Source: Halorussus gelatinilyticus
GTDB taxonomy: Archaea > Halobacteriota > Halobacteria > Halobacteriales > Haladaptataceae
Assembly (NCBI RefSeq): GCF_023238445.1
Contig: NZ_CP096658.1
Location: forward strand, 620,001 to 684,000
Reading direction: 5' to 3'
DNA: 64,000 nucleotides
The notes beneath the pieces are model-generated. The model was given only the letters and a program-made list of their open reading frames with translations, did no database searches and had not been told where the DNA came from. A program made the translations under genes and the position numbers. This document shows positions 25,396 to 38,577 of this stretch, one piece after another. Every line of letters starts with the position of its first letter. Position 1 is the first letter of the stretch.

Positions 25396-25949
25396 TAGCG
25401 TCTGTAACTCGTTCGCCCGGCAGAAGTGCGTTCTGCCCCCGAACCGCGGAGGAGACTCCGGAGACTCTCGTCGGGGCGGTCGCGTCGTAGCCAGTATAGA
25501 ACGATAGAGCAGTCCTTGAAGTGGTCGTACATTTTTATTCTAATCATAGAAATTTCTGAACGGTGAGGCCGGCGTTCGTCGCCAAAGTTCAAGTACGGAA
25601 GCGGGACCACCTTCGCCCGGACGCTTCGCGCGGTCGGCCGGAGTCGAGGCCGGACGACCGCCAGTCCGACTAACCTGAGAGAGGGCCGAGCCAAACAATC
25701 GCACGAGTGGCGTCGCTGGAGATTGGAGCGGCGTCTCCGGCGGTCGAGTTGTATCGCTGGAGGTCAATCGGTTACGGACGAACCACGTCTCCCGAGCCGT
25801 GCTTCGTCACTCAGCACGACCTCGTGCGGTGGGCGCGGCGCTCGTGAGCGCCGCGCCCGCACGTGCCGCACCGGAAATCGGGAGAGCGCGCGACACTGGG
25901 AGCGGCGGCGCTACGCGAAGTCGCGTCGAAAGCCAGTGACTCCGCCTTC
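25396..25949. other. 554-bp spacer with AT-rich patch and a dispersed repeat
   Basis: Two things stand out. An A+T-rich patch at 25529-25558 contains ATTTTTATTC and TAGAAATTTC, and could be a promoter facing either way. A hairpin repeat occupies 25816-25857. Short open frames here have poor codon logic and no recognisable products, so I call no gene. Confidence 0.5.
25816..25857 (+). repeat. 42-bp dispersed repeat with hairpin, copy 1
   Basis: This stretch matches 38465-38506 on the opposite strand at 41 of 42 bases. It contains a near loop-free hairpin: arm GGGCGCGGCGCTC at 25831-25843, loop GT, reverse-complement arm ending at 25858. A second small hairpin, GCACGA CC TCGTGC, precedes it at 25814-25827. 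Both copies are intergenic, like bacterial REP elements. Confidence 0.8.
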
Positions 25950-26267
25950 TTAGGACGGGAGCGGGCAGAGACTCGCGGTCAGTACCGCGCGCTCGTCGGT
26001 GTCGTTGCGTGCGCCGTGGACTTCGCCGCGCTCGTGGAGGACGACGCCGGGGGCCTCGACGGTCTCCTCGGTGTCGCCCTGAATCACCGTCACCGTGCCT
26101 TCGAGGACGTGGAAGACGTTGGTCGCGTCGGCGTGGTCGTGGGGCGACAGCTCCGCGCCGGGGCCGAGCGCGAACGCCTTCACGAGTACGTCGTCGGTCA
26201 CGGCCAGTTCCGTATCGAGGACCTGTCCCTGCTCGGGGTCGAGGTCGGGATAGCGGTCGAGTCCCAT
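25950..26267 (-). CDS. Single-domain cupin protein
   Basis: From ATG 26267 the product is 105 aa and forms one double-stranded beta-helix. The first cupin motif is SPHDHADATNVFHVLEGTV (residues 41-59), and the second is GVVLHERGEVHGARN near 75-89. The His residues H43, H45 and H84 and an acidic residue suggest a metal site. Small cupins serve as dioxygenases, isomerases or sugar-binding sensors, and the substrate is not clear. A minus-strand TATA box at 26291-26300 fixes the start and implies a leaderless transcript. The frame stays open far upstream, but that part is antisense-like and not protein-like. Confidence 0.87.
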   Translation of the reverse strand: MGLDRYPDLDPEQGQVLDTELAVTDDVLVKAFALGPGAELSPHDHADATNVFHVLEGTVTVIQGDTEETVEAPGVVLHERGEVHGARNDTDERAVLTASLCPLPS

Positions 26268-27992: not shown

Positions 27993-29168
27993 ATGGTCGG
28001 CTCCTCGCGTCTCCGCCAGGGACCGAACTGGGCGCACGTCGTCTCGGCGCTGGGACTCCTGTACGTCGTCCTCGCCGTCGGTCGGTTCGCGGCGGTCGTG
28101 GCGTCGGGCGACTCGCTCGCGGAGGCGCTCCTGAACGTCGTGCAGGTCGGCGGTCCCGGCGCGATGCTCCTCTACGGCGGGCTTCGACTCCCGGCGACCG
28201 AACTCCGGCCCGAGGCGTACCCCCGCGTCGTGACGTGGTGTCTCGGCGGGGCCGCGGTGTTGCTCGGGATAGTCGGACTACTCTTCCTCGACCCAGACGT
28301 GAACGTCAACCACCCGCTGTGGTCGGTCGTCCTCGCCGCGGCCGTCGGCAACCTCGGCGGCTTCGCCATCGGAACGAACGAGGCGCGGGCCATCTCCCGT
28401 GCCCGCGACGCCGAGGACCACGAGCGCGAGTTACAGCGCCAGAACGAGCGGCTCGAATCGTTCGCCAGCATGCTCGCCCACGAACTCCGCAACCCGCTGA
28501 ACATCGCCCAAATCTACCTCCCGCAGGCCACGGCGGGCGACGAGGCCGCCGCCGCCGAGGTCGAATCGGCCCACGAGCGCATCGAGGAGATGATAGATGT
28601 TCTGCTCATCACGGCCCGGAGTACCGATTCAAGCGTCGAGACCGGGCGCGCGTCGCTCGGCGAGGTCGCCGCGGAGGCGTGGGAGGGCCTGCCGGTCGAG
28701 CGCGCGAACCTCGTCGTGGAGACCGACAGGACCGTCCCGGCCGACCCGGTTCACCTTCGGCACCTGCTCGAAAACCTGTTCAAGAATGCCGTGGAGCACG
28801 GCTCCACGAGCAGTCGGCCGTCGGCCGACGACGCTGTCGAACACGGTTCGACAACCAGTCGCCCTGCGGACGACGACGCCGTGGAACACGCCGACGAGAG
28901 CGTGACCGTTCGTGTCGGCGACCTCCCCTCCGGCTTCTACGTCGCCGACGACGGGCCGGGCATCCCGGCCGACGAGCGCGCGGCCGTCTTCGACGCCGGG
29001 TACACTACGGACGCCGACGGCATCGGTCTCGGGTTGACGTTCATCTCGCAACTGGCCGAGACGTACGGCTGGGACTGCACCCTCACCGAGAGCGAGGCGG
29101 GCGGCGCGCGCTTCGAGTTCCGGAACGTCGAGACGGAGACCGAGAAGCGACGGGCGGACCGCGCGTAG
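27993..29168 (+). CDS. Membrane sensor histidine kinase with four-helix sensor and duplicated N-box segment
   Basis: The 391-aa protein has four membrane helices (about residues 15-35, 45-62, 78-98 and 105-125), like the 4TM sensor of archaeal kinases. A short coiled coil leads to the H-box LAHELRNPLN (His near 164). The N-box reads NLFKNAVEHGS near 266, and DDGPGIP plus GIGLGLTF form the ATP lid. Just after the N-box a 15-codon unit is repeated (28788-28832, 28833-28877, then a partial copy), repeating AVEHGST. No response regulator is next door, so it is an orphan kinase. TATAAC at 27961-27967 gives a leaderless start. Confidence 0.88.
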   Translation: MVGSSRLRQGPNWAHVVSALGLLYVVLAVGRFAAVVASGDSLAEALLNVVQVGGPGAMLLYGGLRLPATELRPEAYPRVVTWCLGGAAVLLGIVGLLFLDPDVNVNHPLWSVVLAAAVGNLGGFAIGTNEARAISRARDAEDHERELQRQNERLESFASMLAHELRNPLNIAQIYLPQATAGDEAAAAEVESAHERIEEMIDVLLITARSTDSSVETGRASLGEVAAEAWEGLPVERANLVVETDRTVPADPVHLRHLLENLFKNAVEHGSTSSRPSADDAVEHGSTTSRPADDDAVEHADESVTVRVGDLPSGFYVADDGPGIPADERAAVFDAGYTTDADGIGLGLTFISQLAETYGWDCTLTESEAGGARFEFRNVETETEKRRADRA

Positions 29169-37318: not shown

Positions 37319-38422
37319 ATGTCGGATAGCGGAACGGCGGGGGACGCCGGGCCGAAGAGCGACGGCGGGTCGGGGAGTATCGGGTCCGACGACGACGACT
37401 CCCAGCCCAGCGATACGATGCGGGCGCGGGCCGACGAGAGCAGTTGGAAGCTCTGGCTCCTGATGGAGGCAAATCGGTGGGTCGTCGCGAGCGTGTTGCT
37501 CGTCGGCGTGTTCGTCGCGTTGGTTGCCATCGGCGTACTCGACCCCTCGCCGCTCCAGCGGTCGGTCGCTCAGTCCGACCCGACCGAGACGCTGTTCCAG
37601 GCGTTCGTGACCGTCATCATCACGGGCGTCACGCTGGTCGTGACGCTGAACCAGTTGGTCCTCTCCCAAGAACTCGGGCCGGTCGGCGACCAGCGCGGCC
37701 GGATGGAGGGTGCGATGGAGTTCCGACAGGACGTAGAGGAAGTCCTCGACAGTCCCGTCAGTCCGCCCGAACCTGCCTCCTTCCTACAGGCGCTCATCGA
37801 CGAGACCCGCTCGCGGGCCAACGAACTCGCCGACGCGGTGAGCGACAGTCGCGACGAAGACCTGCGAGACGTCGTCGAGGACTACGTGGACGCGCTCGAA
37901 GAGAACGCCAACGAGGTCAGCGACCAACTGGACGAGGCGGAGTTCGGGAGCTACGACCTGCTCTCGGCGGTGCTGGACTTCAACTACTCGTGGAAGATTT
38001 TCGTCGCGCGCCGCCTCCACAACGAACAGGGCGACGCGCTGACCGACGAGACCGAGGACGCCTTCGACGACTTGGTGGAGGTTCTGTCGTTCTTCGGCCC
38101 GGCGCGCGAACACTTCAAGACGCTCTACTTCCAGTGGGAACTGGTCAACCTCTCGCGGGCGATGCTCTACTCGGCGGTCCCGGCGCTGGTCGTGGCCGCC
38201 TCGATGATAATCTACTACGACGCCGAGGCGCTGCCGGGCGCGACGCTGGGCATCAGCAACGACATCCTCGTGACGAGTTTCGCCACCACCGTCGCTATCG
38301 TGCCGTTCATGCTCCTGCTGTCGTACATCCTCCGCATCGCCACGGTCGCCAAGCGGACGCTCTCCATCGGCCCGTTCGTCCTCCGCGGCGTAGACCGGAG
38401 CGACGAGTTGGACTTCGAGTAG
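37319..38422 (+). CDS. Four-helix membrane protein with large coiled-coil domain, paralog A
   Basis: From ATG 37319 the product is 367 aa. After a disordered acidic N-terminus come two membrane helices (about 60-82 and 98-120). A cytoplasmic helical region of about 150 aa follows (DQRGRMEGAMEFRQDVEEV to FGPAREHFKTLY), then two more helices (about 285-305 and 320-345) and a short tail. NYSWKIFVARRLHNEQG and the surrounding region align well with the protein at 53307-54698 (DYSWQLHVARRFKRKYG), showing the two are paralogs. No catalytic motif is visible. The architecture suggests a channel-like or sensor protein, but this is a guess. Confidence 0.8.
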   Translation: MSDSGTAGDAGPKSDGGSGSIGSDDDDSQPSDTMRARADESSWKLWLLMEANRWVVASVLLVGVFVALVAIGVLDPSPLQRSVAQSDPTETLFQAFVTVIITGVTLVVTLNQLVLSQELGPVGDQRGRMEGAMEFRQDVEEVLDSPVSPPEPASFLQALIDETRSRANELADAVSDSRDEDLRDVVEDYVDALEENANEVSDQLDEAEFGSYDLLSAVLDFNYSWKIFVARRLHNEQGDALTDETEDAFDDLVEVLSFFGPAREHFKTLYFQWELVNLSRAMLYSAVPALVVAASMIIYYDAEALPGATLGISNDILVTSFATTVAIVPFMLLLSYILRIATVAKRTLSIGPFVLRGVDRSDELDFE

Positions 38423-38464
38423 CGCACACGCGGATTCTTCGTTCGAGCGCGTTCTTCGACTTCC

Positions 38465-38506
38465 GGCGCGGCGCTCACGAGCGCCGCGCCCACCGCGCGA
38501 GGTCGT
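38465..38506 (-). repeat. 42-bp dispersed repeat with hairpin, copy 2
   Basis: The reverse complement matches 25816-25857 at 41 of 42 bases. The hairpin arm is GGCGCGGCGCTC at 38465-38476 with loop AC and a perfect second arm to 38490. It sits 43 bp after the stop of the membrane protein gene and before the JAMM gene. Weak similarity to copy 1 continues outside the core. Confidence 0.8.
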
Positions 38507-38577
38507 CGCGGTCCGACTCCCGAAAACCCACGAGCCAGCACTTTTACCCGCAGAACCCCAACTCGCGCCCGACACCC

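Follow-up and report, generated by a model that had tools for sequence, protein, structure and literature searches.

The window analysed here, 64,000 nt of a Halorussus gelatinilyticus contig (NZ_CP096658.1, positions 620,001 to 684,000), contains two 42-nt sequences in inverted orientation (25816-25857 and 38465-38506), which match at 41 of 42 positions (98% complementary) and, according to an inverted-repeat search, are separated by 12607 nt. The pair reported in the first-pass annotation is thereby borne out, and it stands out among the 25 inverted pairs shown for the window, since the runner-up by identity measures merely 29 nt at 93%. Codon-usage gene finding places each copy between predicted genes, as had been proposed, and the hairpin said to be preserved is indeed found in both (Table 1). 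Copy 1 is located 81 nt from the end of a gene which, judging by the sequence pattern of the fold, we take to be cupin-like, while copy 2 starts 41 nt past the stop codon of the gene occupying 37319-38422. Two other features of this neighbourhood deserve mention in their own right: a second repeat of about 120 nt at 25577-25700 (AGTTCAAGTACGG...CCGCCAGTCCGACTAACC...), which is found beside the cupin gene in several genomes of Halorussus and recurs at many other places in that genus, and a histidine-kinase-like ORF (27993-29168) whose C-terminal half contains a stretch repeated in frame (AVEHGSTSSRPSADD/AVEHGSTTSRPADDD).

Table 1. Features of the two repeat copies and the adjacent gene (window coordinates)
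Feature	Position	Strand	Basis
Copy 1, decayed long-form element	25732..25869	- (structured strand; 5' end near 25869, 3' near 25732)	cmsearch R1 65.7 bits; R2 50.9 bits, E 9e-11
D hairpin with outer stem, copy 1	25818..25868	-	sequence; conserved in family alignments A1-A3
Conserved motif GACCTCGTGCG, part of copy 1 D hairpin region	25818-25828	+	
Palindromic D stem, copy 1	25831-25843 / 25846-25858		sequence
End motif CGCACGTGCC, part of copy 1 D hairpin region	25859-25868		
C hairpin, stem CGTGCT/AGCACG (25798-25803 with 25813-25818)	25798..25818	-	sequence; A3 helix 2
Broken B hairpin, left arm now unpaired	25772..25797	-	comparison with family copies
Copy 2 remnant, D hairpin and GAGGTC motif	38463..38508	+ (structured strand)	sequence, BLAST
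Cupin-like gene	25950..26267	-	codon-usage gene finder; conserved in genus

When the 3,668,365-base host genome was searched with the 42-mer, BLAST returned 23 matches at E<=1e-3, which correspond to about 18 distinct places and in some cases are one palindrome counted on both strands; the exact 24-base core occurs three times, its reversed control not at all. The match within the window is not due to chance, since it is the best there by identity and similar sequence occupies these approximately 18 genomic places. Instead of only two copies without counterparts in relatives, 17 of 18 genomes of the genus also gave matches, a count obtained with a longer query than the 42-mer. Comparison of oriented family copies revealed that the 42-mer consists of a hairpin, designated D, and a conserved joint, and represents the last hairpin of a larger element with a core of about 140 nt and a full length of about 200 nt. 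The conserved unit comprises four to five hairpins and is described by covariance models of 139-148 positions. In the orientation of the models, longer copies of the genus read CCTCCCCAACCG, hairpin A, ATCCACC, hairpin B, GAGCC, hairpin C, GACCTCGCGCG, hairpin D and GCACGCGCC, while the opposite, structured strand folds into consecutive hairpins D, outer D, C, B, A and E linked by conserved unpaired motifs, from 5' TGCRGTGGCGCG to 3' CCACGANNGCAG, the ends being defined by a 199-nt stretch common to two loci. The weaker similarity that had been noticed outside the 42-nt core proves real for copy 1, a recognisable decayed full element and the only R2 match below E 0.01 in the scan of the window. 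Copy 2 retains the D hairpin and the adjoining GAGGTC motif only and falls below detection by the covariance models. Both copies are decayed. The site itself is not well conserved in the genus, since a match near the cupin gene, apart from its own locus, was found in at most five of 16 other loci, with mixed orientation.

The family extends far beyond the genus. R1, a covariance model, detected 52 places in the 3.67-Mb host genome (E<=1e-3), with copy 1 as the one situated in the window, and matched 291 of 391 sampled Halobacteria genomes representing 73 of 86 genera, at most eight candidates being scored per genome in this survey. R2, a second model derived from 111 class-wide matches, found copies in 36 of 40 genomes, up to 71 per genome; these 40 were chosen by hand (34 had matched before and six had not), with at most 81 candidates scored. 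In a sample of the phylum 44 of 294 genomes matched, all 44 belonging to the same order, and none of the 11 genomes listed from the rest of the phylum gave a match (230 further non-matching ones are unlisted). Plasmid records contributed six matches out of 72,556, four of them from Halorussus, with no annotated feature beneath a match. Spread by viruses was considered and rejected, phage records being free of family matches and viral contigs giving none with one strict pattern, which is too strict for exclusion. A 19-mer tried as a family probe turned out to be too unspecific: scanning of genome contigs yielded 63 stretches, bacterial for the most part, of which the seven Halorussus or "halophilic archaeon" loci are real, all seven matching R2 as compared with none of the 21 bacterial loci given (of 56).

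The stems covary strongly. In A2, an unconstrained MAFFT alignment of 23 copies not fitted to any structure, RNAalifold proposed 26 pairs, 13 of which have changes on both sides, and 97.0% of 594 cells are paired, with 86 double-sided cells versus 26.0 in shuffles. In A3, comprising 111 sequences, standard pairs account for 94.2% of 2676 cells versus 71.5% in shuffles and 24-52% with slid partners; double-sided changes affect all 26 pairs, including eight of eight in helix 2 (hairpin C), and 563 double-sided cells are counted versus 153 in shuffles, although A3, unlike A2, was aligned by a model carrying the same structure and leans towards it. The two strands are not equivalent. Tips of the hairpins are built as a 2x2 internal loop, two base pairs and a small loop, and in 118 copies 87 of 92 hairpins with such internal loops have GA/GA on one and the same strand, compared with none in shuffled copies and 11 of 454 2x2-loop hairpins in flanking DNA. 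This strand is opposite to that of the model, minus for copy 1 and plus for copy 2, and in the C hairpin of copy 1 TC/TC on the plus strand corresponds to GA/GA on the structured one. The GA dinucleotides are preceded by a pyrimidine and followed by a purine in 160 of 174 cases, and pyrimidine-GA-purine is known as a context in which sheared tandem G-A pairs are stable in DNA; a literature search on such pairs brought up only papers on DNA hairpins, none relevant. Mispairs on the model strand (80 AC versus 28 GT) point to the same structured strand as the GA/GA loops, and the strand of copy 1 was assigned from these two family features. Most of the wobble asymmetry is contributed by helix C, with counts of 23 to 2, and by a single pair in the outer D stem, with 44 to 6; in helix B, at 4 to 5, and in helix D, at 9 to 15, it is absent or reversed. 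Predicted folding energy of the structured strand as DNA is not exceptional in two of three copies (z -0.5 and -2.5, versus -4.5 for the window copy), and when the window copy is folded as RNA, the complementary strand is predicted to fold better than the structured one.

Such perfect stems might be a purely mutational product of replication template-switching, which corrects imperfect palindromes in the absence of selection, and the very low number of wobble intermediates together with wholesale replacement of hairpins (see below) would suit this mechanism. It would leave unexplained, however, why unpaired motifs (GGYTGGGGAGG, CGYGCGAGG and GGCGCGCGC) are kept across the class and why GA/GA mismatches stay uncorrected, always on the same strand, so that we regard this already disfavoured scenario as very improbable.

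Genomic context was assessed for 118 copies, of which 30 are from the host genome (out of its 52), six from the genus and 82 from the class. With one exception (117/118) they are located outside predicted genes. Relative to the upstream gene, 57 copies are co-directional and 61 opposite, the four possible arrangements being about equally frequent, and the median distance is 80 nt to gene ends (on the 5' side) versus 129 nt to gene starts, as is expected if promoters are spared. A function as 3'-UTR element or terminator, hinted at by both window copies and by one site conserved in another genus (g64, locus L164), is ruled out by this random orientation, and an own small-RNA gene was rejected because neither element end has promoter-like composition, AT-rich or TATA-like blocks being absent upstream of both. 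Nor is there replication-strand bias among the 52 copies of the host genome (permutation p 0.70). All-against-all comparison of neighbours disclosed no transposase and no linked gene family, the commonest neighbours belonging to diverse housekeeping families at no more than five of about 134 loci.

The same data bear on the possibility that the structured strand acts as RNA, namely as a UTR or read-through motif, bound by protein or affecting stability, in that half of the copies which is transcribed in the correct direction. RNA often contains tandem G-A pairs and multi-hairpin junctions, the bias of wobble pairs, where present, favours the structured strand, with G-U type pairs in 80 of 2676 cells (3.0%) versus 1.0% on the other strand, as RNA would also give and as speaks against a DNA reading, and both window copies as well as the L164 site are situated just after the end of a co-directional gene. 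Against this stand the equal orientations over the 118 copies, the missing promoter signal and the scarcity of wobble pairs if compared to tRNAs from the same loci, where nine genes only gave 16 G-U type pairs out of 207. Rfam 15 likewise offers no family: the window gave no hit reaching the gathering score, and 19 family loci gave none below E 0.1, even though the degree of covariation is comparable to that of Rfam structured RNAs. Action through RNA is possible, and on balance rather unlikely. Action at the DNA level is preferred over a transcript because of the lack of promoter, the lack of preferred orientation to genes and the unusually small number of wobble pairs.

Comparison of orthologous sites made it possible to follow individual copies. 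At L164 the element is present in all six species of g64 in the same orientation, in the long form in three of them and in the other three either in a short form, with A joined directly to D, or with other sets of hairpins; the sequence of hairpin D varies among the species and its pairing is kept. For ten further sites within one genus the joined gene flanks were searched and 50 intergenic regions were fetched from the five other species. Nine sites are collinear, and their 45 regions comprise 36 with R2 matches at E<=0.1, four with the 5'-end motif only (L331, L333, L334 and L346, counted as not kept) and five with nothing; the tenth (L298) is non-collinear in four of five species and was left out, its inclusion giving matches in 40 of 50, while at L301 the right flank was located in just two of the five species. 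Orientation, deduced from match strand versus contig strand, agrees in all 32 single-copy orthologous cases, and an inverted pair of copies at L303 is retained in four of four. Copies thus keep their place and orientation among related species, while stems either undergo compensatory changes or are replaced wholesale, and blocks of hairpins are gained, lost and copied between loci. At L299, for instance, species with near-identical flanks differ by a B-/C-type hairpin block placed exactly between GCGAG and GATGAG and also by hairpins inserted in A, and at L305 hairpin D is swapped in three of six species with unchanged joints. In one genome (G307) the complete elements at L296 and L304, about 199 nt long, share 93% identity, which fixes the element ends and demonstrates copying between loci. 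A clean empty site was not found among the regions compared, the one short region (G267, at the L299 site) having lost flanking sequence too. In its entirety the family is class-wide, structured, strand-polar, modular and mostly vertically inherited.

These observations also delimit how far the family can be equated with an ordinary non-autonomous mobile element (MITE, PATE or REPIN) that a transposase would mobilise in trans, with the requirements of that enzyme accounting for the covariation. Dispersed intergenic location in tens of copies, random orientation, a length too small for coding and the full-length 199-nt copy shared at 93% identity by two loci of one genome are what such an element would exhibit, and PATEs of Haloquadratum are likewise palindromic and devoid of coding capacity (PMC3119063). 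Conservation of sites between species, however, is unlike recent mobility, and the site concerned in the 199-nt sharing also carries the element in other species, which makes gene conversion a sufficient explanation. Nor was a fitting transposase found: no protein of PF01797, the Y1 transposase/RAYT family, is encoded in the host genome (of 14 known genomes used as control, 5 scored positive, Haloferax volcanii among them), recurrent neighbours include no transposase, and an origin as omega-RNA or remnant of a TnpB transposon was rejected, as none of the three TnpB genes of the host lies near an element copy and R2 gave no match below E 0.2 at their loci. We consider this explanation improbable. 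The first-pass annotation had suggested a REP- or MITE-like family, of which a dispersed, multi-copy, intergenic hairpin family of haloarchaea stands, while the 42-mer as its unit does not. The REP label, together with a REP/RAYT system, fails with the absence of PF01797, and the MITE label is left unsupported since no clear terminal inverted repeat, target duplication or transposase with matching ends was found, the ends read from the 199-nt stretch having in common only TGC..GTGGC in inverted order. Judged by the features tested, the family does not qualify as REP and displays no clear defining mark of a MITE or PATE, and rather than a local set of this kind it is far older and wider, with conserved structure and fixed places.

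Sequences of the REP, BIME and REPIN type, which come with RAYT transposases, form many short hairpins between genes, and some of these stand close together as oppositely oriented pairs. The haloarchaeal family resembles them in being composed of many intergenic hairpins with some close inverted pairs (L303) and differs in its unit, which measures about 200 nt and contains four to five different hairpins instead of a single palindrome of 20-40 nt, and in having a host without RAYT. In architecture it is closest to the BOX elements of Streptococcus pneumoniae and S. suis (PMC3049150), no relation at the level of sequence (boxA, boxB, boxC) being expected: both are intergenic repeats scattered through the genome, in which the end modules are fixed and internal hairpin modules occur in optional number, both have strong secondary structure and little recent mobility, and in both the number of modules varies at one site (between strains for BOX). 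BOX is confined to a few streptococci, whereas the present family spans a whole archaeal class, has its hairpins replaced wholesale and bears strand-specific GA/GA loops. Among haloarchaeal repeats the closest are the PATEs of Haloquadratum walsbyi (PMC3119063), palindrome-associated transposable elements derived from ends of IS605-type transposons, which are similarly non-coding and palindromic, with no clear terminal inverted repeats and no target duplication seen; their insertions are strain-specific, unlike the sites conserved between species here, and the present host has neither tnpA (PF01797) nor TnpB near the copies. The family is not described in the available portions of PMC3119063, PMC3049150, PMC3404096 and PMC5496347, and no description of it came up in searches of openly available literature, among them one that used the conserved sequences as text queries.

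Taken together, the evidence moderately favours the view that the 42-mer pair represents two decaying members of a modular, non-coding intergenic family of Halobacteria, which would have spread in the past as a non-autonomous element and in which the folded strand would be under selection at the DNA level. Its present persistence could be ascribed mainly to vertical descent and to recombination or gene conversion between copies, while retention might be due to the folded strand itself serving as a putative binding or processing site. The acting form would then be DNA, with a strand-specific structure, either extruded or single-stranded, to which a putative host protein would bind. Selection is not uniform, since several copies in the genus of the window are decayed and few relatives have a comparable copy at the window site. 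A bolder version, which we put forward tentatively as possible rather than probable, is that the class maintains a "DNA gene" at tens of fixed intergenic sites per genome, its product being a strand-specific folded single strand with tandem G-A hairpins for recognition by a putative host protein, with hairpins as interchangeable cassettes and the joints alone conserved. If the favoured reading is right, intergenic DNA of haloarchaea harbours a previously unlisted class-wide family of structured elements, tens of copies per genome, whose spread is comparable to that of the best-known bacterial repeat families, while it is much older and structurally constrained at fixed sites. Many of the hairpins, GC-rich stretches and intergenic "repeats" that annotations of these genomes treat as terminators or noise would then belong to one family, and genetically tractable haloarchaea would provide a test system for how a structure with exchangeable hairpins is kept.

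Some further peculiarities were noticed in the course of the comparison. Copies at L303 with its orthologs, L124, L150, L152 and L176 occur as close pairs of opposite orientation, in a BIME-like manner. GC-rich extra hairpins (GGGCGC..GCGCCC and GCGGGACC..GGTCCCGC) recur inside hairpin A at different loci and in different species (L290, L305 and L299 orthologs). On the 3' side of the element, a GTGGGACTGAAAGGGGC-like motif with another long hairpin is found at L159, L163, L208, L212, L217, L222 and L229, and this combination, present in several genera, possibly constitutes a further repeat family.
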